From Clostridia bacterium (GTDB lineage: Bacteria; Bacillota; Clostridia; Christensenellales; Aristaeellaceae): a DNA stretch of 40,033 nucleotides. The position numbers and the translations under genes were made by a program. The DNA is taken from positions 1 to 40,033 of the forward strand of contig JAFRFY010000116.1 of the NCBI GenBank assembly GCA_017434085.1, read 5' to 3'. Of this stretch, positions 1-9,402 are shown piece after piece (the first letter of the stretch is position 1; every line of letters starts with the position of its first letter). Below the pieces are notes generated by a model. It worked only from the letters and a program-made list of their open reading frames with translations. It was not told where the DNA came from and ran no database searches.

Positions 1-1610
1 ACCGGCGCGTCGTTGATGCCGTCGCCCACGAACGCCAGCCGCTTGTTGCCCGTGCATTCCTTCAAAAGCTCCTCCACGCAGGCCACCTTGTCCTGCGGCA
101 GCAGTTCGGCCCGGTAGTCGGTCAGACCGACCTCCTTTGCCACCGCCTCCGCTACGGACTTCGCGTCGCCGGTCAACATGACCGTCTTTTCAATGCCCGC
201 CTTCTTGAGCTGGGCGACGGCCTCTTTCGCGTGCTCCTTCAACTCGTCGGCGATGACGATGTGCCCCTCGTATTCCCCGTTCACCGCCACGTGGATGATG
301 GTCCCCACGTGATGGCAGTGGTGGAACGGCACGCCCAGTTTGTTCATCAGCTTCTCGTTGCCCACGGCGACCTCGGTGCCGTCAACCTTGGCGATGACGC
401 CGTGGCCGCTGATCTCCTGCAAATCGCTCACCCGCTTGGGGTCGATGTGCTTGCCGTAGGCGCGCTTGAGGCTCAGGCTGATGGGGTGGCTGGAGTGGCA
501 CTCCGCCAGCGCGGCGTACTCCAGGAGCTTGGCCTCGTCGATCGGGCTGTGGTGCACCGCGGTGACCTCGAAGTTGCCCTTGGTGATGGTGCCGGTCTTG
601 TCAAAGGCCACCGTGGTGACCTCCGAGAGGGTCTCGAGGTAGTTGGAGCCCTTCACCAGTATGCCCTGGTTGGACGCCCCGCCGATGCCCGCGAAGAAGC
701 TCAGCGGTATCGAAATCACCACCGCGCAGGGGCAGGAGATCACAAGAAACGTGCACGCGCGTAGGACCCAGTCCCGCCACAGCGCGCCAACGGAGGCGTA
801 GCTTGACATGCCGATCTTCGTGATCATGATGAACAGCGGCGGCACGAGCGCCAGCGCCAGCGCCGCGTAGCACACGAACGGCGTGTAGACGCGGGCGAAC
901 TTCGATATGAAATTCTCCGATTTCGACTTACGCGAGGCGGCGTTCTCCACGAGGTCGAGGATCTTCGACGCCGTGGATTCGTCGAATTCCGCCGTGGTGC
1001 GGATCTTCAACACGCCGGACATGTTGATGGACCCCGACAGCACGTCGTCGTCCACCGCGACCTCCCGCGGCTTCGATTCGCCGGTCAAGGCAGCGGTGTT
1101 CAGCGCGGAGGAACCCTCCACCACGATGCCGTCGATAGGCACCTTCTCACCGGGCTGCACCACGATGATCGACCCCGCCTCCACCTCGTCCGGATCGACC
1201 CGCGTAAGCGAACCGTCCTCATTCTCGATGTTGGCATAGTCCGGGCGAATGTCCATCAATTCGGAAATGTTCCGGCGGCTCTTGCCCACGGCGTAGCTCT
1301 GGAACAGCTCGCCCACCTGGTAGAGCAGCATGACCGCCACGCCCTCGCCGTACTCCCCCAGCGCGATCGCGCCCACCGTCGCCACGGTCATCAGGAAGCA
1401 CTCGTCGAACACCTTGCCGTTCTTGATGCCCAGGAATGCCTTGCGCAGTATGTCCCAGCCCACCGTCAGGTAAGGTATCAAAAACAGCAGTATGATCGCC
1501 CATTTCGGCAGGTCGACGTGCACGTAGTCCTCCGAAATCAGATAAAGCGGCACGAAAAACACGGCGGCTACGATGATGCGCGTCAACAGGTTTTTCTGCT
1601 TTTTGTTCAC
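1..1610 (-). CDS. Heavy-metal translocating P-type ATPase (P1B, CPC type), 3' end outside window
   Basis: ATP-driven membrane pump expected to export a soft divalent metal (Zn, Cd or Co). About 536 residues are visible. Seen: Lys-rich N terminus followed directly by membrane segments, with no HMA metal-binding domain; TGES actuator loop; C293-P294-C295 in the ion-path helix; phosphorylation site D337 in FDKTGTITKG; the SSHPIS 'HP' motif of P1B pumps; and GDGINDAPV at the window edge. The last membrane helices lie outside. Start chosen as GTG at 1610, because GGAAGGGG sits 10 bases upstream and no better start is in frame. It begins 32 bases after the preceding binding-protein gene on the same strand, so it is probably the last visible cistron of the riboswitch-led operon. 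CPC pumps are mostly Zn/Cd/Pb exporters, some Co; the substrate is inferred from context only. Confidence 0.93.
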   Translation of the reverse strand, partial: MNKKQKNLLTRIIVAAVFFVPLYLISEDYVHVDLPKWAIILLFLIPYLTVGWDILRKAFLGIKNGKVFDECFLMTVATVGAIALGEYGEGVAVMLLYQVGELFQSYAVGKSRRNISELMDIRPDYANIENEDGSLTRVDPDEVEAGSIIVVQPGEKVPIDGIVVEGSSALNTAALTGESKPREVAVDDDVLSGSINMSGVLKIRTTAEFDESTASKILDLVENAASRKSKSENFISKFARVYTPFVCYAALALALVPPLFIMITKIGMSSYASVGALWRDWVLRACTFLVISCPCAVVISIPLSFFAGIGGASNQGILVKGSNYLETLSEVTTVAFDKTGTITKGNFEVTAVHHSPIDEAKLLEYAALAECHSSHPISLSLKRAYGKHIDPKRVSDLQEISGHGVIAKVDGTEVAVGNEKLMNKLGVPFHHCHHVGTIIHVAVNGEYEGHIVIADELKEHAKEAVAQLKKAGIEKTVMLTGDAKSVAEAVAKEVGLTDYRAELLPQDKVACVEELLKECTGNKRLAFVGDGINDAP

Positions 1611-1642
1611 ACCGTCACACCCCTTCCTTTGGGTTCGGCGCG

Positions 1643-2803
1643 CTAACCCCGCCGCGCCTGCACGGCCCGGTAGGAGCAGGCCTCGGCCAGCGCGCACAGC
1701 GCGTTCAGGTTGGCGTCCGGGTTGTAGATCTTCAATACGCGGGAGAGGTCGTCGAAGTTGTAGGCGTTCATGGCGGCGCTGGTGGACAGCGTGTACTTTT
1801 CGCTGTAGTCCTCGGCGCTGTCGGACATCCAAAAGCCCTGGGTGACCTGTATCGCCCTGCCGTTGTCCCGGAATTCCTCCGCGTAGCCGGTGACGGCGTT
1901 GAGCATCAGCGCGAACGCCGGGCCGATGATGGAGCTGTACTTGCCCACCACGAACTTAAGCGTGCCGTCGGTGACCAGCTGCAGATTGCGGGTGTTGTAG
2001 CTGTCCACCACGCCCAGCGGCGTTTTGCCGATGACGTTCACCATCTCCGCGGGCGGCAGCACGGACAGCACGGCGTCGTATTCCCCCGCCTCAAAGGCCG
2101 CTTTGGCGGTCTCAAAGAAATTTTCGCGGCTTATGTAGCCGGGGCACAGGGTCACGCGCACGCGGTCCGTCTCCACCGTCACGGGCGCATCCGAACGGGC
2201 CAGCGCCTCCCGCGGCATTGAAAACGTCGCCCCGTAGGCGCTGGAGAGGGTGTCCAGTATGCCCAGCGCGCGCTGGTAGTGCATCTCGTTGCCCAGCGGC
2301 GCGCCGCCGCTCAATACAAAGTAGCGGCTCCCGACCTTCTCCCGTATGAAGAAGCGCGCCATGTCCGCGCCGGCCTGGAACTCGAAGGGCTGGCCGGGCC
2401 CGAACATGCCCAGGAACCAGGGGTTCATTTCCACCGCCTCGAAGTCCTCGGCGGACACCGTGCCGGAGGCCAGCAGATAGTAGGCGCGGTTCTTCTCGCA
2501 CAGCGCCACCTCGGCCCTCAGGTCCTGGGACAGGAAGGACATGAAGCCCTCCACGCCCTGGTCGCAGGCGTTTTGTATGAAGCTGAGCTCCTCCTCACGG
2601 GAGGTGATGGAGCCCGAGTAGACGAACTTCACCATCTCGAAGTTCTGCTCGATGTAGCCCTTGAGGTAATCCTTGAAGCCCAGCACCTCGTCGTCGGCGG
2701 TGTTGTACACGATGACGCCGATCTTGTGCACGCCCTCCTCGGCCAGCGCCGGAAGGCACAGCGCGACGGCCAGCATCAGAAGCATTGCGATCAGCCGCTT
2801 CAT
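1643..2803 (-). CDS. Periplasmic binding protein-like (type 1 fold) secreted protein
   Basis: 386 residues with a clear Sec signal peptide (Lys-Arg, hydrophobic core, cleavage near LPALAEE). The mature part starts KIGVIVYNTADD, the usual first beta strand of type-1 periplasmic binding proteins. Later segments (VLSVLPPAEMVNVIG, LGVVDSYN) fit the alternating alpha/beta pattern of sugar or BMP-family receptors. No lipobox is obvious. Its ATG overlaps the stop of the upstream ATPase gene by four bases (ATGA), so it is translationally coupled to an Opp-type transporter that already has its own, structurally unrelated family-5 binding protein. That is unusual. It may be a sensor or accessory ligand trap, or serve a permease elsewhere. 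Specific family not recognised; ligand unknown. Confidence 0.8.
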   Translation of the reverse strand: MKRLIAMLLMLAVALCLPALAEEGVHKIGVIVYNTADDEVLGFKDYLKGYIEQNFEMVKFVYSGSITSREEELSFIQNACDQGVEGFMSFLSQDLRAEVALCEKNRAYYLLASGTVSAEDFEAVEMNPWFLGMFGPGQPFEFQAGADMARFFIREKVGSRYFVLSGGAPLGNEMHYQRALGILDTLSSAYGATFSMPREALARSDAPVTVETDRVRVTLCPGYISRENFFETAKAAFEAGEYDAVLSVLPPAEMVNVIGKTPLGVVDSYNTRNLQLVTDGTLKFVVGKYSSIIGPAFALMLNAVTGYAEEFRDNGRAIQVTQGFWMSDSAEDYSEKYTLSTSAAMNAYNFDDLSRVLKIYNPDANLNALCALAEACSYRAVQARRG

Positions 2804-3757
2804 GCGTCTTCCCCCTTTCCGAACAGGTGGCAGGCGACCTCGTGGCCAGGTTCGATCTCCTTGAGCGTCGGCCACACCTCCCGGCAGACCGGCATGCACC
2901 GGTCGCACCGGTCCCGGAACGGGCAGCCGGCGGGCACGTCCAGCGGGCTCGGCGGCTCGCCCTTGATGGGCTCGATCTTCTTTGAAAAGTCCATCCTCGT
3001 GTCGAACACGGCGTTCAGAAGCGCCCTTGAGTACGGATGGCAGCACACCTCGCTCAATTTGTCCCCCGGCATGACCTCCACGATGTTGCCCAAATACATC
3101 ACCGCGATCTGGTGGGAGAAGGACTGTATGAAGCCCAGGTTGTGGCAGATGAAGCCTATGGTGATGTTCTTCTCCCGCTGCAGCTTGGTGATGAGCTCGA
3201 TCACCGTCTCCTGCACCGACACGTCCAGCGCGCTGGTGGCCTCGTCCATCACGATGATCTCCGGCTCCAGCGCCAGCGCCCGGGCGATGGCCACGCGCTG
3301 ACGCTGGCCGCCGGACATGTTGTGGGGATAGCGGTCGGCAAAATCGCCGGGCAGCTCGACCATTTGAAGCAGCTCGCGGGCCCTGGCGTTCTTCTCGGAG
3401 CGTTTGATCCTGCCGTAGTTCAGAAGCGGCTCGCACACGATGTCCCTGATCTTCATCTTGGGGTTGAAGGACGTGGCGGGGTCCTGGAACACCATCTGGA
3501 TGTGCTGGCGCATCTCGTGAAGCTCGCGCCCCTGCAGCTTGGTGATGTCCCTGCCTTTGTAGATGATCTCGCCCTCGGTGGGCCGGTCCAGCCACACCAG
3601 AAAGCGCATGAACGTGCTCTTGCCGCAGCCGGATTCGCCCACGAGACCGAGGGTCTTTCCCCGGTACAGCTTCAGATTGACGTCGTTGCACGCCACCAGC
3701 TCCCTGCCATCATTGGTGGGAAAGCGCCGGGTGACGTGCCGCGCCTCAAGCAGTAGT

Positions 3758-3765
<8 letters not shown>
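2800..3765 (-). CDS. dppF: Oligopeptide/nickel-type ABC transporter ATP-binding protein (DppF/OppF)
   Basis: 321-residue cytoplasmic ATPase of an Opp/Dpp/Nik importer. Walker A GESGCGKST at residues 43-51, Q-loop VFQDP, signature MSGGQRQR near 150, Walker B IIVMDEATSALD near 170-181, and switch His208. The usual HD after the switch strand is HN here (ICHNL). The C-terminal oligopeptide-transporter extension carries the Cys cluster CPFRDRCDRC, typical of full-length OppF/DppF proteins. The start overlaps the end of the partner ATPase gene by eight bases, and the stop overlaps the next gene by four. It should heterodimerise with the product of 3758-4546. Family certain, substrate not. Confidence 0.94.
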
Positions 3766-4546
<781 letters not shown>

Positions 4547-4552
4547 GCGCCG

Positions 4553-5395
4553 TCACCTCCCCTCGTTGGTGCGGGGATCGAGGATATCCCGCAGGCCGTC
4601 GCCCAGCATGTTGAACACGACGACGGTCACGAATATCGCCAGGCCGGGATAGATCATCAGCCACGGCGCGGACTGCATGAAGTTGCGGCCCTCGTTGAGC
4701 ATGGAGCCCCACTCCGGGTTCGGCGGCTGCGCGCCGAAGCCCAGGAAGCTGAGCGCCGCCAGCTCCATCATCATGCCGCCGATGTCCGTGGCGGCGGTGA
4801 TGACCAGCGTGGTGATGGTGTTGGGCAGCATGTACTTCCACAGCATGTAGGGCGTCTTCGAGCCGGTGACCATGGCCGCGGCCACGAAGTCCGTGTGGCG
4901 TATCTTCATCACCAGGCTCCGGGCGAGGCGGGCGTACTTGGGCCAGGTCACCACGGCGATGGCGATGATGGCGTTCTTCGTGCTCGCGCCCAGTATACCC
5001 GCCACGGCGATGGCCAGCACCAGGCCCGGGAAAGCGATCATCATGTCCGCAAGGCGCATGATCACGGCGTCCACCCAGCCGCCGAAGTAGCCGGCAAGTA
5101 TGCCCAAAAACGTGCCGATCACGAACACCACGCCCACCAGTATGAACGTGGAGGACAGCGACGTCCGCGCGCCGTAGAGCACGCGCACGAATATGTCGCG
5201 GCCCATCTTGTCCGTGCCGAAGGGATGCTCCGCGCTGGGCGGCTTGATGGACTCCTTGAGGCTGCCCTTGATGGGGCTTACGTCCCCCGCGATCTGCGGC
5301 GCGAACACCGCCATCAGCACGATCAGCAGCGCCAGCACGGCGAATAGGACAAAGACGGGGTACTTCTGTATAAAGCGCTTCTTTTCCATCCTCAT
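4553..5395 (-). CDS. dppC: ABC transporter permease (DppC/OppC/NikC family)
   Basis: 280-residue inner-membrane permease. N-terminal cytoplasmic Lys/Arg stretch and one helix (OppC-type N domain), the conserved HPFGTDKMGRDIF segment, then about five helices with the cytoplasmic coupling loop AAAMVTGSKTPYMLWKYMLPN and the family-typical LSFLGFGAQPPNPEWGSML near the end. Start chosen at ATG 5395, whose A is shared with the TGA of the preceding permease gene (TGATG). A reading frame extends further upstream but only as out-of-frame overlap with that gene. It pairs with the DppB-type permease to form the channel. Confidence 0.94.
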   Translation of the reverse strand: MRMEKKRFIQKYPVFVLFAVLALLIVLMAVFAPQIAGDVSPIKGSLKESIKPPSAEHPFGTDKMGRDIFVRVLYGARTSLSSTFILVGVVFVIGTFLGILAGYFGGWVDAVIMRLADMMIAFPGLVLAIAVAGILGASTKNAIIAIAVVTWPKYARLARSLVMKIRHTDFVAAAMVTGSKTPYMLWKYMLPNTITTLVITAATDIGGMMMELAALSFLGFGAQPPNPEWGSMLNEGRNFMQSAPWLMIYPGLAIFVTVVVFNMLGDGLRDILDPRTNEGR

Positions 5396-6333
5396 CACCG
5401 CCTCAGCCGCATCCGCGGGTCCACGTAGTTGTAGGAGATGTCCACCAGCAGGTTGATGACCATGTAGATCACCGCCACCCACAGCACATAGCCCTGTATG
5501 AGATAGTAGTCATAGGAAGTGATGGCGGACACCGCCAGGTTGCCCATGCCCGGATAGGAGAATATGACCTCCACCACGCTGGTGCCGCCCAGCAGCGAGC
5601 CGACGGACAGGCCGAGCATGGTGATCAGCGGCAGAAGCGAGTTGGGAAACACGTTGCCCCACAGTATCTTCCACTCCGGCACGCCCCGCGCCCGCGCGCC
5701 GGTGACGTAGTCCGAGTGCAGCTCCTCCAGCACCGCCGTGCGCACCTGCCGGGTGTACTTGGCGGACATGGCCACCGCCAGCGTCGCCGCGGGCAGTATC
5801 ATGTCCTTGAACGTGCCGCCGGAGGACACCACTGGCAGCAGCCGAAGCTGCACGCAGAACACCAGTATCAGCAAAAGCCCCACCCAGAAGTTGGGTATGG
5901 ACACGCCGAAGAAGGTGATGGCCCGGACGATGTAATCGATGGGCTTGTCCTGATACACCGCCGACAGCACGCCCAGCGGCACCGCCACGATCAGCATCAG
6001 CACCATGCTCATCAGCGCCAGCTTGAGCGTCGGCCACAGCCGCGCCGCCAGCAGCGTCACCACCGGCTTTTGCAGCGCGAAGGACGTGCCGAAGTCCCCG
6101 TGCAGGCAGTTTCCCAGCCAGCGGAAGTACTGCGCCAGGAACGGGTCGTTCAGCCCCATCTCCTCCCGAAGCACTGCCACCTGTTCCTCGTCGGGCATCA
6201 GGCCCTGGGCGAGGTACATGTTCCGCACCGGGTCGCCGGGCGACAGATAGGTCAGCAGGAACGTGATGATGCTGATGCCGATCAGCACGATCAGCATCTG
6301 CAACAGCCTGGACAGTATTTGCTTTTTACCCAA
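5395..6333 (-). CDS. dppB: ABC transporter permease (DppB/OppB/NikB family)
   Basis: 312-residue permease with six predicted helices. First helix near residues 7-30, the family segment SPGDPVRN, the periplasmic loop with LGNCLHGDFGTS, the coupling loop YVTGARARGVPEWKILWGNV, and a C-terminal helix ending at DPRMRLRR. Start is TTG at 6333, about nine bases after a GAGG ribosome site; no in-frame ATG or GTG fits the family N terminus better. Separated from the binding-protein gene by 70 bases holding a strong hairpin, which may lower permease dosage relative to the receptor. Confidence 0.93.
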   Translation of the reverse strand: MGKKQILSRLLQMLIVLIGISIITFLLTYLSPGDPVRNMYLAQGLMPDEEQVAVLREEMGLNDPFLAQYFRWLGNCLHGDFGTSFALQKPVVTLLAARLWPTLKLALMSMVLMLIVAVPLGVLSAVYQDKPIDYIVRAITFFGVSIPNFWVGLLLILVFCVQLRLLPVVSSGGTFKDMILPAATLAVAMSAKYTRQVRTAVLEELHSDYVTGARARGVPEWKILWGNVFPNSLLPLITMLGLSVGSLLGGTSVVEVIFSYPGMGNLAVSAITSYDYYLIQGYVLWVAVIYMVINLLVDISYNYVDPRMRLRR

Positions 6334-6360
6334 GCAAATCGCCTCACTTGTAAGTTGAAT

Positions 6361-6392
6361 AGGGATTTAGCGCGCAAGCGCGCTAAATCCCT
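6361..6392 (-). promoter_or_regulatory. Perfect 15-bp intercistronic RNA hairpin between receptor and permease genes
   Basis: AGGGATTTAGCGCGC and its exact reverse complement are separated by AA. No U-run follows on the minus strand, so it is probably not a full terminator. A hairpin placed directly after a binding-protein gene in an ABC operon usually stabilises the upstream mRNA or causes partial termination, giving an excess of receptor over permease. The structure is seen; the role is inferred. Confidence 0.7.
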
Positions 6393-6403
6393 CAAATCCC
6401 CGC

Positions 6404-7957
6404 TTATTCCGCGGGCACGATCTCCGTCGACAGCCAGTAGTAGTCGGCGGTATGGATGTGCGCGTGGCCCACGTTCTTGGAGTAGGCCATGGAGCTGTTG
6501 TAGTAGCCGTCGATGATCACGGCCGCGTCGTCGATCAGTATCTGCTGCATCTCCTGCAGAAGCGCGGCGCGCCCCTCGGCGTCGGGGGTCTCCAGGAACT
6601 TCTCATAGGCGGCGTCGTAGGCGTCGTTCTGGTAGCCGCAGTAGTTGGAGCCGCTCTTGCCGTACCAGTTGGCCATGTACTCGGTGGGGTCGCCGTTGCC
6701 CACGGTGGTCCAGTTGTTGTTGTCGAGGTCGTAGTTGAAGGTGACCAGGTCGTTCCAGCAGTCGTCGGATGAGCCGTAGGCGGGGTTGACGCCGATGCCC
6801 AGCTCCGCCATGTGCATGGTGTTGGCGTCGGAGAAGTCGTTCAGCAGGCGGTTCTCATAGGAGGAATAGCGAAGGAAGATGGGCTGGCCGTCCAGCTCGC
6901 GCACGCCGTCGCCGTCGCTGTCCACGATGCCCGCCTCGTCCAGCATGGCCGCCGCGGCGTCGGGATCGTAGGCGTAGGGATCGTTCAGATTCTCGTAGCC
7001 GTAGGCCAGCGTGCTGGGCAGCACGGAGAAGCCCGTGGTGTACAGGCCGCCGATGGTGTTGGATTCGCAGATGGTGGGATTGTCGATGCCCATCACGATG
7101 GCCTTGCGCAGCACATCGTTGCCCAGTATGCCCTTGAAGTTGATCCAGCTGAAGCCGCAGCGCACGCCGGAGGCGATGTCCACGGTGTAGTTGTCGTCCG
7201 CCTGGAGGCGCTGGAGGTCGGAGACGTTGGTGATGTTCTCCACCAGGTCCACCTGCCCGGCCATCAGCGCGTTGGCCTTCGCGGAGGCGTCGCCCATGAA
7301 TATGATCTCCACCTTGTCGTAGGGCACCTCGCCGCCCCAGTAATAGGGATTCGCGGCCATGGTGTAGCCCACCAGGTCGGCGTGGGATTCCGCCATGTAC
7401 GGGCCGGTACCGATGACGCCGTGGTCAAAGTCGGTGGTGTCGGCGACGTTGATGATGGCCATGACCGGGTAGGCCAGGTTGCCGGGCAGGTTGTAGTCCG
7501 GCTTGGGCAGCGTAATGGTGATGGTGTTCGCGGCGTCGTCCGCGACGACCTCGGCCTCGAAGGGCAGGTAGTTCTGCGGGTTGGAGGAGCCGTCCGGGCC
7601 GTGCTCACGCACGCTGTCCAGGGACTCCTTGACCTTGGTGGCGGTCATGTCCGCGCCGTTGGAGAACTTCACGCGGTCGCGCAGCACAATGGTCCACACG
7701 GTGGAATCCGCGTTGGCCTCCCAGCTCTCGGCCAGCCAGGGCTCGATCTCCATGTTGTCGTTGAACTTGAACAGGCCCTCGCTGATGCCGTAGCGCATGC
7801 AGTTCCAGGCGCAGTTGATCTGGGCGGCGGGGTTGACCAGGCCGTCGGAATACATCTGGCAGCCGAAGGTGAGCACCTTCTCCTCCGCCAGCGCGGGCAC
7901 GGCGCACATTGCCGCGACCATCGTCAGTGCCACTAAAAACGCGATAAACTTCTTCAT
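6404..7957 (-). CDS. Family-5 extracellular solute-binding protein (Opp/Dpp/NikA type)
   Basis: 517 residues. Sec signal peptide MKKFIAFLVAL...ALAEE, then the family-5 hallmarks: EGLFKFNDNMEIEPWLAESWE near residue 60, the WTIVLRDRVKFSNG strand pair, GTGPYM, and ALMAGQVDLV. No lipobox Cys at the signal end, so it may be released or held by the permease. The end (SKNVGHAHIH...LSTEIVPAE) lines up by eye with the NikA C terminus but contains a His-X-His-X-His cluster. The start is ATG 7957 after AGGAGAGGAG; longer in-frame upstream sequence has no signal peptide. It captures ligand for the downstream BCDF transporter. Under riboswitch control the ligand could be cobalt, a cobalt chelate, a corrinoid precursor or a peptide; sequence alone does not decide. 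Confidence 0.92.
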   Translation of the reverse strand: MKKFIAFLVALTMVAAMCAVPALAEEKVLTFGCQMYSDGLVNPAAQINCAWNCMRYGISEGLFKFNDNMEIEPWLAESWEANADSTVWTIVLRDRVKFSNGADMTATKVKESLDSVREHGPDGSSNPQNYLPFEAEVVADDAANTITITLPKPDYNLPGNLAYPVMAIINVADTTDFDHGVIGTGPYMAESHADLVGYTMAANPYYWGGEVPYDKVEIIFMGDASAKANALMAGQVDLVENITNVSDLQRLQADDNYTVDIASGVRCGFSWINFKGILGNDVLRKAIVMGIDNPTICESNTIGGLYTTGFSVLPSTLAYGYENLNDPYAYDPDAAAAMLDEAGIVDSDGDGVRELDGQPIFLRYSSYENRLLNDFSDANTMHMAELGIGVNPAYGSSDDCWNDLVTFNYDLDNNNWTTVGNGDPTEYMANWYGKSGSNYCGYQNDAYDAAYEKFLETPDAEGRAALLQEMQQILIDDAAVIIDGYYNSSMAYSKNVGHAHIHTADYYWLSTEIVPAE

Positions 7958-8007
7958 GATACTCTTCTCCTCTCCTGTTGTATCGCAAGCCCTCGCGGGC
8001 GTTGTGA

Positions 8008-9024
8008 TCATTTTTCCTCCGAATCCGCCACGCCGTAGGCGATCAGGAATTCGCCCCTCGGCGCGGCGAGGCCGGTGTAGACGTACAGCACATGCCCGTC
8101 GCATCGGGCGCGGACCTCTCCAATCGAATCGCCGTAGAGGTCCTGAAGCGTCCCGAGAAGCTGGCCCTTTTGGATAGGCTGATCCTTCCCCACCGCGGGA
8201 TACCACAGGCCGTCCCACTCGGAATCGACATACACCGCCTCTTTAAACACGCGGCGCTTCAACGCCTCATCCCGCAGGCCCGGCGTCTCCGGGATGATGC
8301 CCAGGTGCGCAAGCAGCAGCAGTATGTCCCTGCGGTTCGCCTCGACGAGCTCCGCGTCGCAGATATACCCCTCGCCGCGCTCCACCAGCAGCCCGGGGAT
8401 GCCCAGCGCGGACGCGGCGTAGCTGTACTGGCCCTTTGTCGCCTGCGATTCGACCAAACAGCCCAGGTTCAGTGCCTTCGCCGCTTTAAGCGACGCCTCC
8501 CGCGCCCCCGGGTTGGTGGGAAAGAACGCCAGCGGCGTCATGCGCTCGCCGCGGCTGCCGCCGTGGAGGTCCAGTATGAAGTCGGCCTGCGGCAGGATCT
8601 CCCGGACGAAGAAGTCCGCGACGCGCTCCCCGACGGTGCCGTCGGGCCTGCCGGGATATCCGGCGTTTAAGTTGTAGCCGTCCTCGGGCAGCATGCGCGG
8701 GTGCATCGTCCAGAAGCCGCTGGTGTTCACGCAGGGCATGAAGATCGCCCGCCCGGACATCTCCGACGGCTCCAGCGCCCGCGCGACCCTGATCGCCGCC
8801 GGCGTGCCGTTGAACTCCCCGGCGTGCATGCCCGCGGTGACCAGCAGCGTCCTGCCGGGCCGCGCGCCGTTTATGAGTATCACCGGCATCTCATAGCCGT
8901 CGCCCCGTCGCCCGCCCGGGGACACCTCGCCGGCGTTGGCCAGGCCGCCAACGGGCACGCGAAGGACCGTCTGACGCTTCTCGCCCGGGGCAATCGTCTC
9001 CCCGAATATCCGCCAATTACCCAT
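8008..9024 (-). CDS. M14-like succinylglutamate desuccinylase/aspartoacylase family protein
   Basis: 338-residue zinc amidohydrolase or carboxypeptidase-like protein. Zinc ligands H67 and E70 in GMHAGEFNG and H154 in LDLHGG; likely catalytic Glu in LLVERGEG; a C-terminal beta domain (IQKGQLLG...DGHVLYVYTG) as in aspartoacylases. No signal peptide, so cytoplasmic. The start is ATG 9024 with a GCAGGTG site upstream; it is the first cistron after the riboswitch and terminator, 50 bases before the binding protein. Such proteins often accompany peptide-type transporters and would cleave an acyl or amide bond of the imported ligand. Here the placement suggests it processes whatever the B12-controlled importer brings in. 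The substrate is not known. Confidence 0.88.
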   Translation of the reverse strand: MGNWRIFGETIAPGEKRQTVLRVPVGGLANAGEVSPGGRRGDGYEMPVILINGARPGRTLLVTAGMHAGEFNGTPAAIRVARALEPSEMSGRAIFMPCVNTSGFWTMHPRMLPEDGYNLNAGYPGRPDGTVGERVADFFVREILPQADFILDLHGGSRGERMTPLAFFPTNPGAREASLKAAKALNLGCLVESQATKGQYSYAASALGIPGLLVERGEGYICDAELVEANRRDILLLLAHLGIIPETPGLRDEALKRRVFKEAVYVDSEWDGLWYPAVGKDQPIQKGQLLGTLQDLYGDSIGEVRARCDGHVLYVYTGLAAPRGEFLIAYGVADSEEK

Positions 9025-9049
9025 AGCAACACCTGCTTCAGTATAAATA

Positions 9050-9087
9050 AAACGGTCCGCCCCGCGACATGCGGCAGCAGACCGTTT
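9050..9087 (-). terminator. Intrinsic terminator of the cobalamin riboswitch expression platform
   Basis: On the minus strand AAACGGTCTGC pairs over 11 bp (one G.U) with GCGGACCGTTT, followed by TTTATTTAT-like sequence. It lies between the riboswitch B12 box and the first gene start, where a transcription-attenuation platform is expected: ligand bound, terminator forms, operon off. Confidence 0.8.
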
Positions 9088-9139
9088 TTTTGCAGCCAAA
9101 AACAAGCCATCCGTCCTTCAGTGATCCGTGAAGCGAATG

Positions 9140-9322
9140 TATCTCAGCTACAGGCAAGTCTTCTGACTCAGGTTCACAGCGTTCGCCGTCTTCCCGGTTT
9201 AAAACCAGTGACATTATGGCGTTCGCTCCCCAATACAGCGGCGGCCCCGTGCGGGATTCTCACCCGCTTCCTTATTCAGCCCCTCCCGTGGGAGAGGTCA
9301 CCTGCGCCGGTTATTTATTTTT
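9140..9322 (-). promoter_or_regulatory. Cobalamin (B12) riboswitch
   Basis: Read on the minus strand, it holds the conserved aptamer blocks in order: GGAAGCGGGTGAGAATCCC (plus 9253-9271) followed by a CCGCCGCTGTA block, a GGGAAGACGGCGAAC segment, and a B12 box GAGTCAGAAGACTTGCCTG (plus 9151-9169). It is directly followed by an intrinsic terminator and the hydrolase-transporter operon, so that operon should be turned off when cobalamin is plentiful. Aptamer identity is very secure from the conserved blocks; outer boundaries are approximate. Confidence 0.95.
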
Positions 9323-9329
9323 CGATACC

Positions 9330-9359
9330 ATGATAACATATATCCGTTACACAAGTCAA
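9330..9359 (-). promoter_or_regulatory. Sigma-A-type promoter for the riboswitch operon
   Basis: Minus strand: -35 TTGACT (plus 9354-9359), 18-bp spacer, -10 TATCAT (plus 9330-9335). Predicted transcription start near 9323, just ahead of the aptamer, so the riboswitch is the 5' end of the transcript. Confidence 0.8.
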
Positions 9360-9402
9360 GCGTCATGTTCTTATTAGTTTAATTAAACTTTGTTATAGCA
9401 GG

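Follow-up and report, generated by a model that had tools for sequence, protein, structure and literature searches.

A cobalamin-riboswitch operon joining a Nik/Opp-type importer to an uncatalogued second receptor beside a P1B ATPase in Clostridia

Cobalamin riboswitches control genes for B12 synthesis, for the uptake of B12, its precursors and cobalt, and for B12-independent isozymes (PMC3766115). The closest described systems are nickel-type ABC importers. NikABCDE of Clostridium tetani and Desulfitobacterium hafniense, which have a cobalamin riboswitch, are treated as exceptions to nickel specificity in a study that uses the nickel-ligand residues of E. coli NikA as a criterion and enters two Clostridia for NikABCDE in its cobalt column (PMC2667541). 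The nikA riboswitch of Sporomusa ovata was tested and called promiscuous for corrinoids (PMC9600662). Here, we analyzed a 40,033-nt stretch of Clostridia bacterium DNA (contig JAFRFY010000116.1 of assembly GCA_017434085.1; hereafter the window), in which a cobalamin riboswitch precedes a deacylase gene, a Nik/Opp-type importer, a second receptor that we name BP2, and the first part of a heavy-metal ATPase gene.

We tentatively favor a role for this operon in importing cobalt, probably chelated, for B12 (corrin) synthesis, a reading drawn from sequence comparison that we regard as close to an even call. An uptake role in cobalt or B12 supply leads on the evidence of the riboswitch, the conserved link between it and the importer, the Nik-type permeases and the corrin-making carriers. 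The original prediction had proposed an alternative route for acquiring cobalt, a cobalt chelate or cobinamide, with a hydrolase trimming the ligand and a pump exporting excess metal. Cobalt uptake survives as the leading interpretation, while the pump turned out not to be of cobalt type and the hydrolase to be optional.

The riboswitch operon and its recurrence

The covariance model RF00174 matched over its full length (positions 1-189 of 189) at 102.8 bits and an E-value of 8e-25, well over the gathering threshold of 31.5 bits, which bears out the cobalamin riboswitch as claimed. Past the aptamer, folding gave a terminator hairpin of -27.3 kcal/mol. A similar hairpin lies 3′ of the aptamer in 10 of 10 relatives examined, with the window and relatives spanning -22.6 to -28.7 kcal/mol, and it ends ~80-90 nt past the aptamer in nine loci and about 117-134 nt past it in L017 and L020 (L-numbers denote fetched loci and G-numbers genomes, G000 being the window's own). 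The stem of the window hairpin is bulged, and a simple pattern scan of the window for terminators did not list it. By eye, a P13-like stem covaries on both sides (CTTCA/TGAAG in the window, with CTCCA/TGGAG and TTCCA/TGGAA as further pairs). This anatomy predicts a transcription-stopping, terminator-type switch downstream of the aptamer. A promoter-like site ahead of it, with 10/12 matches, is suggestive only, as one was found against 0.5 expected by shuffling.

A pattern-based genome scan for relatives of BP2 returned 17 stretches that are 69-92% identical to the window copy, namely 16 near full-length copies (L005-L020) and a fragment at a contig start (L021). An OppF match stands directly upstream of BP2 in 16/16 near full-length copies, and the ATPase gene follows 3′ of BP2 in 15/15 relatives with enough contig; L007 and L010, whose contigs stop less than 0.35 kb from BP2, fall outside this count. 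Twelve genomes show the operon's 5′ end (the window, L005, L006, L008, L009, L010, L012 and L016-L020), and 11 of them have the riboswitch; L011 and L014 begin too late to show it. The order of family-5 receptor (SBP5), OppBCDF, BP2 and P1B ATPase is kept to the limit of each contig, so that the gene order seen in the window was found behind B12 riboswitches in other Clostridia as well. In the genomes of L007, L013 and L015, three more loci (L128, L130 and L142) hold a riboswitch and the deacylase, two of them with SBP5. They are not independent, because they were found starting from riboswitches, and their join to the operon is presumed, because the remaining genes lie on other contigs.

Upstream of the operon, little is shared. 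We compared flanks by open reading frames of at least 100 aa, over 3-5 kb upstream in most of the 12 loci and downstream in 12. On the upstream side, sharing was limited to a weak match between L012 and L016 and the MATE gene of L016; on the downstream side, to the MATE gene and, in L014 and L015, a few others. The close form of BP2 occurs in 2 of 150 genomes of the family (the window's own and G060) and in 1 of 291 genomes of the class (its own), so that we rejected the idea of a common clostridial protein. Another six family genomes and one class genome have only remote relatives, 25-29% identical.

In the window, the eight codirectional genes behind the riboswitch are separated by gaps of 6-70 nt or overlap by 1-8 nt, and the coordinates confirm the compact same-strand arrangement first described (Table 1). 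Because the window begins at contig base 1, the ATPase is truncated and any downstream genes are invisible here. A longer deacylase frame from TTG 9105 crosses the terminator, which makes ATG 9024 the likelier start.

Table 1. Positions of the operon features in the window, listed in the direction of transcription
Feature	Position	Strand	Basis
Promoter-like site, TTGACT-18-TATCAT, TG before second hexamer	9330..9359	-	pattern scan
Cobalamin riboswitch aptamer, RF00174	9136..9320	-	covariance-model match
Predicted expression platform: P13-like stem and intrinsic-terminator hairpin (about 9088-9049)	9046..9135	-	folding; stem by eye
AstE/AspA-type (M14-like) deacylase	8008..9024	-	PF24827
SBP5, family-5 receptor, NikA/Opp type	6404..7957	-	PF00496
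NikB/OppB permease	5395..6333	-	NF045470 Opp2B
NikC/OppC permease	about 4553..5395	-	NF045474 Opp2C
NikD/OppD ATPase	3758..4546	-	family models
NikE/OppF ATPase with oligo_HPY tail	2800..3765	-	family models
BP2, second receptor	1643..2803	-	no Pfam/NCBIfam match; profile comparisons
P1B-type heavy-metal ATPase with CPC motif, truncated 3′ by the contig edge	1..1610	-	TIGR01525, TIGR01512

Importer, receptors and deacylase

The claim of a Nik/Opp-type importer was upheld by both permeases, which exceed the cut-offs of nickel-type NCBIfam models (Opp2B, 391.6 bits vs 350; Opp2C, 331.1 bits vs 300). The first receptor belongs to PF00496, and its best solved relative is the nickel-binding protein 3t66.

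BP2 proved harder to place, as it has no match to any Pfam or NCBIfam model. Among its remote relatives, L033 and L034 come near Peripla_BP_4, both below the cut-off (2e-8, 34.3 of 35.1 bits, and 8e-6, 26 of 35.1 bits); BP2 itself and the remote relatives L028, L029 and L030 gave no match to that model. Compared with the PDB, a joint BP2 profile reached the sugar-binding protein 4yo7 at 2e-4, and the BP2 profile A1 alone gave chance-level matches (best E 0.51). Because these remote relatives approach Peripla_BP_4 and the joint profile reaches 4yo7, we class BP2 as a probable, diverged binding protein of type I (Peripla_BP_4-like). The receptor-like character of this gene, predicted from the window, is thereby made probable, with the type I assignment being putative. 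In the five distant loci (L014 and L017-L020), BP2 has a mean conservation of 73% vs 58% for SBP5. The seven remote loci (L028-L034) showed no Rfam match above the gathering score. By reading, L028 and L030 are surrounded by sugar-type ABC genes, which in L028 are rhamnose-type (Pfam was run on two L028 genes).

The receptors may also differ between lineages in their attachment. A lipobox was seen by eye in 10 of the 16 near full-length BP2 copies (L008, L009, L011, L013, L014, L015 and L017-L020) and not in the window copy. Both SBP5 and BP2 of the window and its closest relatives lack the lipobox seen by eye in more distant relatives. A BtuF-like protein (L023:5136-6155) and the CbiK protein (L024:8226-9350) of the same genome likewise have signal sequences without a lipobox. 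Receptor anchoring may have changed lineage-wide.

The first gene of the operon encodes an enzyme of the AstE/AspA family (PF24827, 92 bits vs a cut-off of 25), in keeping with the M14-like hydrolase originally proposed. The metal-ligand motifs HxGE...H and (L/M/F)D(L/F)HGG are kept in the alignment, in which the L006 and L130 frames are cut short. Its closest solved relatives are the N-acetyl-diaminobutyrate deacetylase structures 6twl/6twm, it falls below the DoeB equivalog cut-off (104.6 vs 402.7 bits), and no signal peptide was seen by eye. Eight of the 12 operons with a visible 5′ end have the deacylase (with a broken frame in L006). It was not found in L016, L018, L019 or L020, where the riboswitch (in L019, nothing) is followed directly by SBP5, and import therefore cannot depend on it.

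This enzyme gives some footing to another function, the import, induced by B12 shortage, of peptides or N-acylated amino acids that the AstE/AspA-type enzyme would deacylate, for example sparing B12-dependent methionine synthesis. We consider this improbable. Peptide receptors are numerous in the SBP5 family, N-acetyl-diaminobutyrate deacetylase stands closest to the deacylase, and the B12-independent isozymes under cobalamin riboswitches (PMC3766115) would offer a regulatory parallel; set against this are permeases that score above cut-off in nickel-type families, the association with corrin makers, a conserved metal-efflux neighbor and the four operons in which the deacylase is missing.

The neighboring metal-efflux cassette

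The ATPase fragment in the window scores above the cut-off of the heavy-metal P1B model TIGR01525 (460.7 bits) and also of the cadmium-family model TIGR01512 (395.8 vs 313.5 bits; the L009 protein reaches 502.8). All 12 full-length relatives carry CPC and a late DVG motif, and none of the 12 carries SPC or HEG(S/G)T. We take CPC with a late DxG/DVG to be the pattern of P1B-2 (Zn/Cd/Pb) ATPases. SPC and HEG(S/G)T are motifs of cobalt-exporting P1B-4 pumps (PMC7689651). The metal P-type pump with a CPC motif that had been predicted is accordingly a P1B heavy-metal ATPase, and the motifs of its full-length relatives are those of the Zn/Cd/Pb type.

In relatives, this gene is part of a larger group. 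A 72-residue HMA-like protein lies between BP2 and the ATPase in 13 of 15 loci (not in L011 or L013; Pfam-tested in L005, L009 and L017), and an ArsR regulator in 3 of 15 (L008, L009 and L013). Of 12 loci examined, 8 have a MATE gene 3′ of the ATPase (family-tested in L009 and L017). In the window, the HMA gene is missing and 32 nt are left between BP2 and the ATPase. The HMA/(ArsR)/ATPase/(MATE) cassette looks like a unit of its own in several relatives and abuts the import operon in the window. In L013, a NiCo riboswitch (RF02683, 63 bits; L013:5695-5777, plus strand) lies ~240 nt past the MATE gene downstream of the operon ATPase.

It is an evenly balanced question whether the ATPase belongs to a separate zinc/cadmium resistance cassette, joined to the operon here by loss of intervening genes, which would be compatible with any of the import functions. 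The reduced spacing in the window fits such a loss. Promoter-like sequence stands beside ArsR in L008, L009 and L013, and TTGACA/TATAAT-like sequence was seen by eye in several others without ArsR. L016 also has a second P1B ATPase, 82% identical to that of the window, paired with a MATE gene; the pair lies immediately 5′ of the riboswitch and on the other strand (L016:520-3788, minus strand). On the other side, BP2 and HMA are only about 31-39 nt apart in L005, L006, L012 and L016, and a scan of window positions 1500-1900 found no promoter-like site. The adjacency of BP2 and the ATPase in 15/15 loci while upstream flanks are hardly shared argues that the neighborhood is selected or moves as a unit.

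Carrier genomes and comparison with known systems

The 17 carriers (the window's own genome and those of L005-L020) are metagenome-assembled genomes titled Clostridiales, Clostridia, Oscillospiraceae, Ruminococcaceae, Blautia or Bacillota. Rumen or duodenum is mentioned in several of the titles, where RUG presumably stands for rumen genomes. CbiC was detected in 16/17, CobS in 15/17, CbiM over its cut-off in 5/17, at least one cobalamin riboswitch in 17/17, and NicO (NiCoT) in 0/17. Among the 150 family genomes, CbiC is over cut-off in 49 and strong (>200 bits) in 31, including 2 carriers, and CbiM is over cut-off in 23 and strong (>170 bits) in 7. CbiC in 16/17 carriers vs strong CbiC in 29/148 family non-carriers gives a Fisher P of 1.3e-9, uncorrected for kinship. 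In the window's own genome (76% complete), four cobalamin riboswitch sites were found. Three precede the operon, a BtuFCD-like set and an apparently exported CbiK, and the fourth is an orphan with no gene seen behind it, so that no riboswitch-linked candidate for cobalt import other than the operon was seen there.

Several observations weigh against cobalt as the substrate. L019 has no riboswitch even at a permissive threshold. SBP5 stays far below the NikA-type cut-offs (Opp5A_nikA, 183 bits vs 600; nickel_nikA, 138 vs 393), and His416 of E. coli NikA, which we take to be a nickel ligand (residue number counted by hand), is aligned to Gly/Ser of SBP5 in one weak phmmer alignment (79 bits). 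Judged by its full-length relatives, the ATPase is of the P1B-2 zinc/cadmium type, not P1B-4. G446 lacks CbiC and CobS and has CbiM. Strong CbiM occurs in 5/17 carriers vs 7/150 family genomes; at the Pfam cut-off, the counts are 5/17 vs 23/150. Strong CbiM is in any case lacking from 29 of the 31 family genomes that have strong CbiC. Carriers have CbiM, if anything, more often than the family does; therefore, the operon is not a simple stand-in for it, and a role as CbiM replacement in corrin makers is unsupported. Finally, another B12 riboswitch in G443 precedes a set that is more NikA-like, and G442 holds one of the same type by permease likeness, which suggests a different substrate for the operon importer.

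The main rival is the import of a corrinoid, cobinamide, or a tetrapyrrole or lower-ligand precursor. Here, SBP5 would bind the tetrapyrrole, BP2 a sugar- or nucleoside-like part, and the deacylase would trim amide side chains. The riboswitch logic fits equally well, the SBP5 family includes the heme-binding HbpA (3m8u, 1e-22), the nearest recognizable kin of BP2 are type I sugar-class receptors, and the second sets of G443 and G442 would leave this importer needing another substrate. We nevertheless find it unlikely, since a BtuFCD-like (FecCD-type) importer with a separate riboswitch is already present in the window's own genome, the operon permeases are nickel-type, and corrinoids would not need a metal-efflux cassette next door; alpha-ribazole as the ligand of BP2 is speculation.

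Returning to cobalt uptake, a scheme can be proposed from the anatomy and families of the parts. When cobalamin is scarce, the riboswitch would let transcription pass the terminator. OppBCDF, served by two extracytoplasmic receptors (the NikA-like SBP5 and the type I-like BP2), would take up cobalt on a small organic ligand. The deacylase, where present and apparently cytosolic, would cleave the incoming ligand at an amide or acyl bond, and the neighboring P1B-2 ATPase/HMA/MATE cassette would expel unwanted co-imported metals such as zinc or cadmium. A more specific version is doubtful in our estimation, namely that BP2 and SBP5 share one OppBCDF pore for an organic cobalt complex (a cobaltophore or part of a half-built cobamide) under B12 control, with the deacylase freeing the metal or part inside and P1B-2/MATE returning wrong metals and spent ligand. 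CbiMNQO and NiCoT were not detected in 12 of the 17 carriers (no CbiM over its cut-off and no NicO), which are draft genomes of B12-making gut and rumen bacteria in which absence is not proof. Because ruminants rely on B12 from microbes and on cobalt in the diet, an uptake route has practical interest, and the operon names a small, testable set of proteins that includes the uncatalogued receptor family BP2.

The survey of riboswitches brought up other loci in these genomes. The orphan site (L022:6518-6341, minus strand, or G000:C121:37517-37340; 108 bits) is followed by ~200 nt of largely conserved, apparently non-coding sequence that ends in a GC-rich stem-like stretch and a T run; beyond it, by eye, lies an RluD-like gene in convergent orientation. 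Five other genomes (G440, G441, G442, G443 and G447) contain similar sequence, and the locus has no further Rfam match. It looks like a B12-controlled small RNA; Rli55 and EutX are small RNAs of this kind. Elsewhere in the same genome (contig C150), a CbiK cobaltochelatase stands behind a cobalamin riboswitch (L024:9350-8226, minus strand; PF06180, 231 bits, match from residue 105). Its signal peptide, seen by eye, makes it apparently extracellular, and CbiK matches lie behind many riboswitches of related genomes. Besides the true CbiC, the genome also encodes a second, weaker CbiC-like protein (G000:C184:29235-29765, 121 bits), which recurs in the family sample at ~90-150 bits.

Nik/Opp sets are found behind other B12 riboswitches as well. 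We fetched 120 riboswitch neighborhoods, 60 of at least 67 above-cut-off sites in 29 corrin-making non-carriers and 60 of at least 100 such sites in carriers, and searched them by tblastn with own-genome proteins and one L018 receptor, so that remote transporters would be missed. Eight further sets were present, two in non-carriers (L071 and L075) and six in carriers (L125, L127, L150, L155, L172 and L181), and the operon as the only Nik/Opp set under B12 control was thus rejected. Outside this count are L108, whose Opp genes run in the opposite direction, and lone OppD/OppF-type ATPase matches in L094, L102, L153, L163, L169 and L180. In an OppB tree, the sets fall in several branches, with some forks poorly supported; in these bacteria, B12 riboswitches therefore appear to have gained control of Nik/Opp-type importers on more than one occasion. 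L071, L125 and L155 share the switch and transporter class with the operon and are nearest to it in the tree (OppB 46-50% identical, support 86/95). They differ in their B-C-A-D-F gene order, and the L155 receptor is closer to NikA than SBP5 is (364.8 vs 183 bits). No BP2 or deacylase was found by tblastn in the stretches fetched for these three loci.

Other known systems resemble the operon in part. Staphylopine CntABCDF, which imports metal bound to an organic ligand, likewise combines an Opp-type importer with an exporter gene nearby (here MATE), but the operon SBP5 is unlike CntA (75.8 bits vs a cut-off of 800), and no metallophore synthesis genes were noticed near the operon, no dedicated search having been made. 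BtuFCD has a FecCD-type permease, whereas the operon permeases are PF00528 (BPD_transp_1). The cassette shares ArsR, HMA and a CPC...DxG ATPase with ArsR/CadC-type P1B-2 (CadA/ZntA) cassettes and differs in standing beside a B12-controlled importer, to which it is partly joined. A search of the literature by title and start of abstract, with most subscription journals outside its scope, returned no description of the operon's composition.

The published NikABCDE systems come closest, as there, too, a cobalamin riboswitch precedes an ABC importer of the NikABCDE/Opp type. The operon differs from them in a receptor diverged from NikA, in BP2, in the deacylase that often comes first and in the P1B-2 cassette downstream, none of which is mentioned in the accessible portions of PMC2667541 and PMC9600662. 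To call this an undescribed kind of system, as the original prediction suggested, is too strong given these published cases and the eight other sets found here. The principle is known, and what looks new is the combination, with an uncatalogued BP2 receptor family and a recurrent P1B-2 (often MATE) neighborhood.

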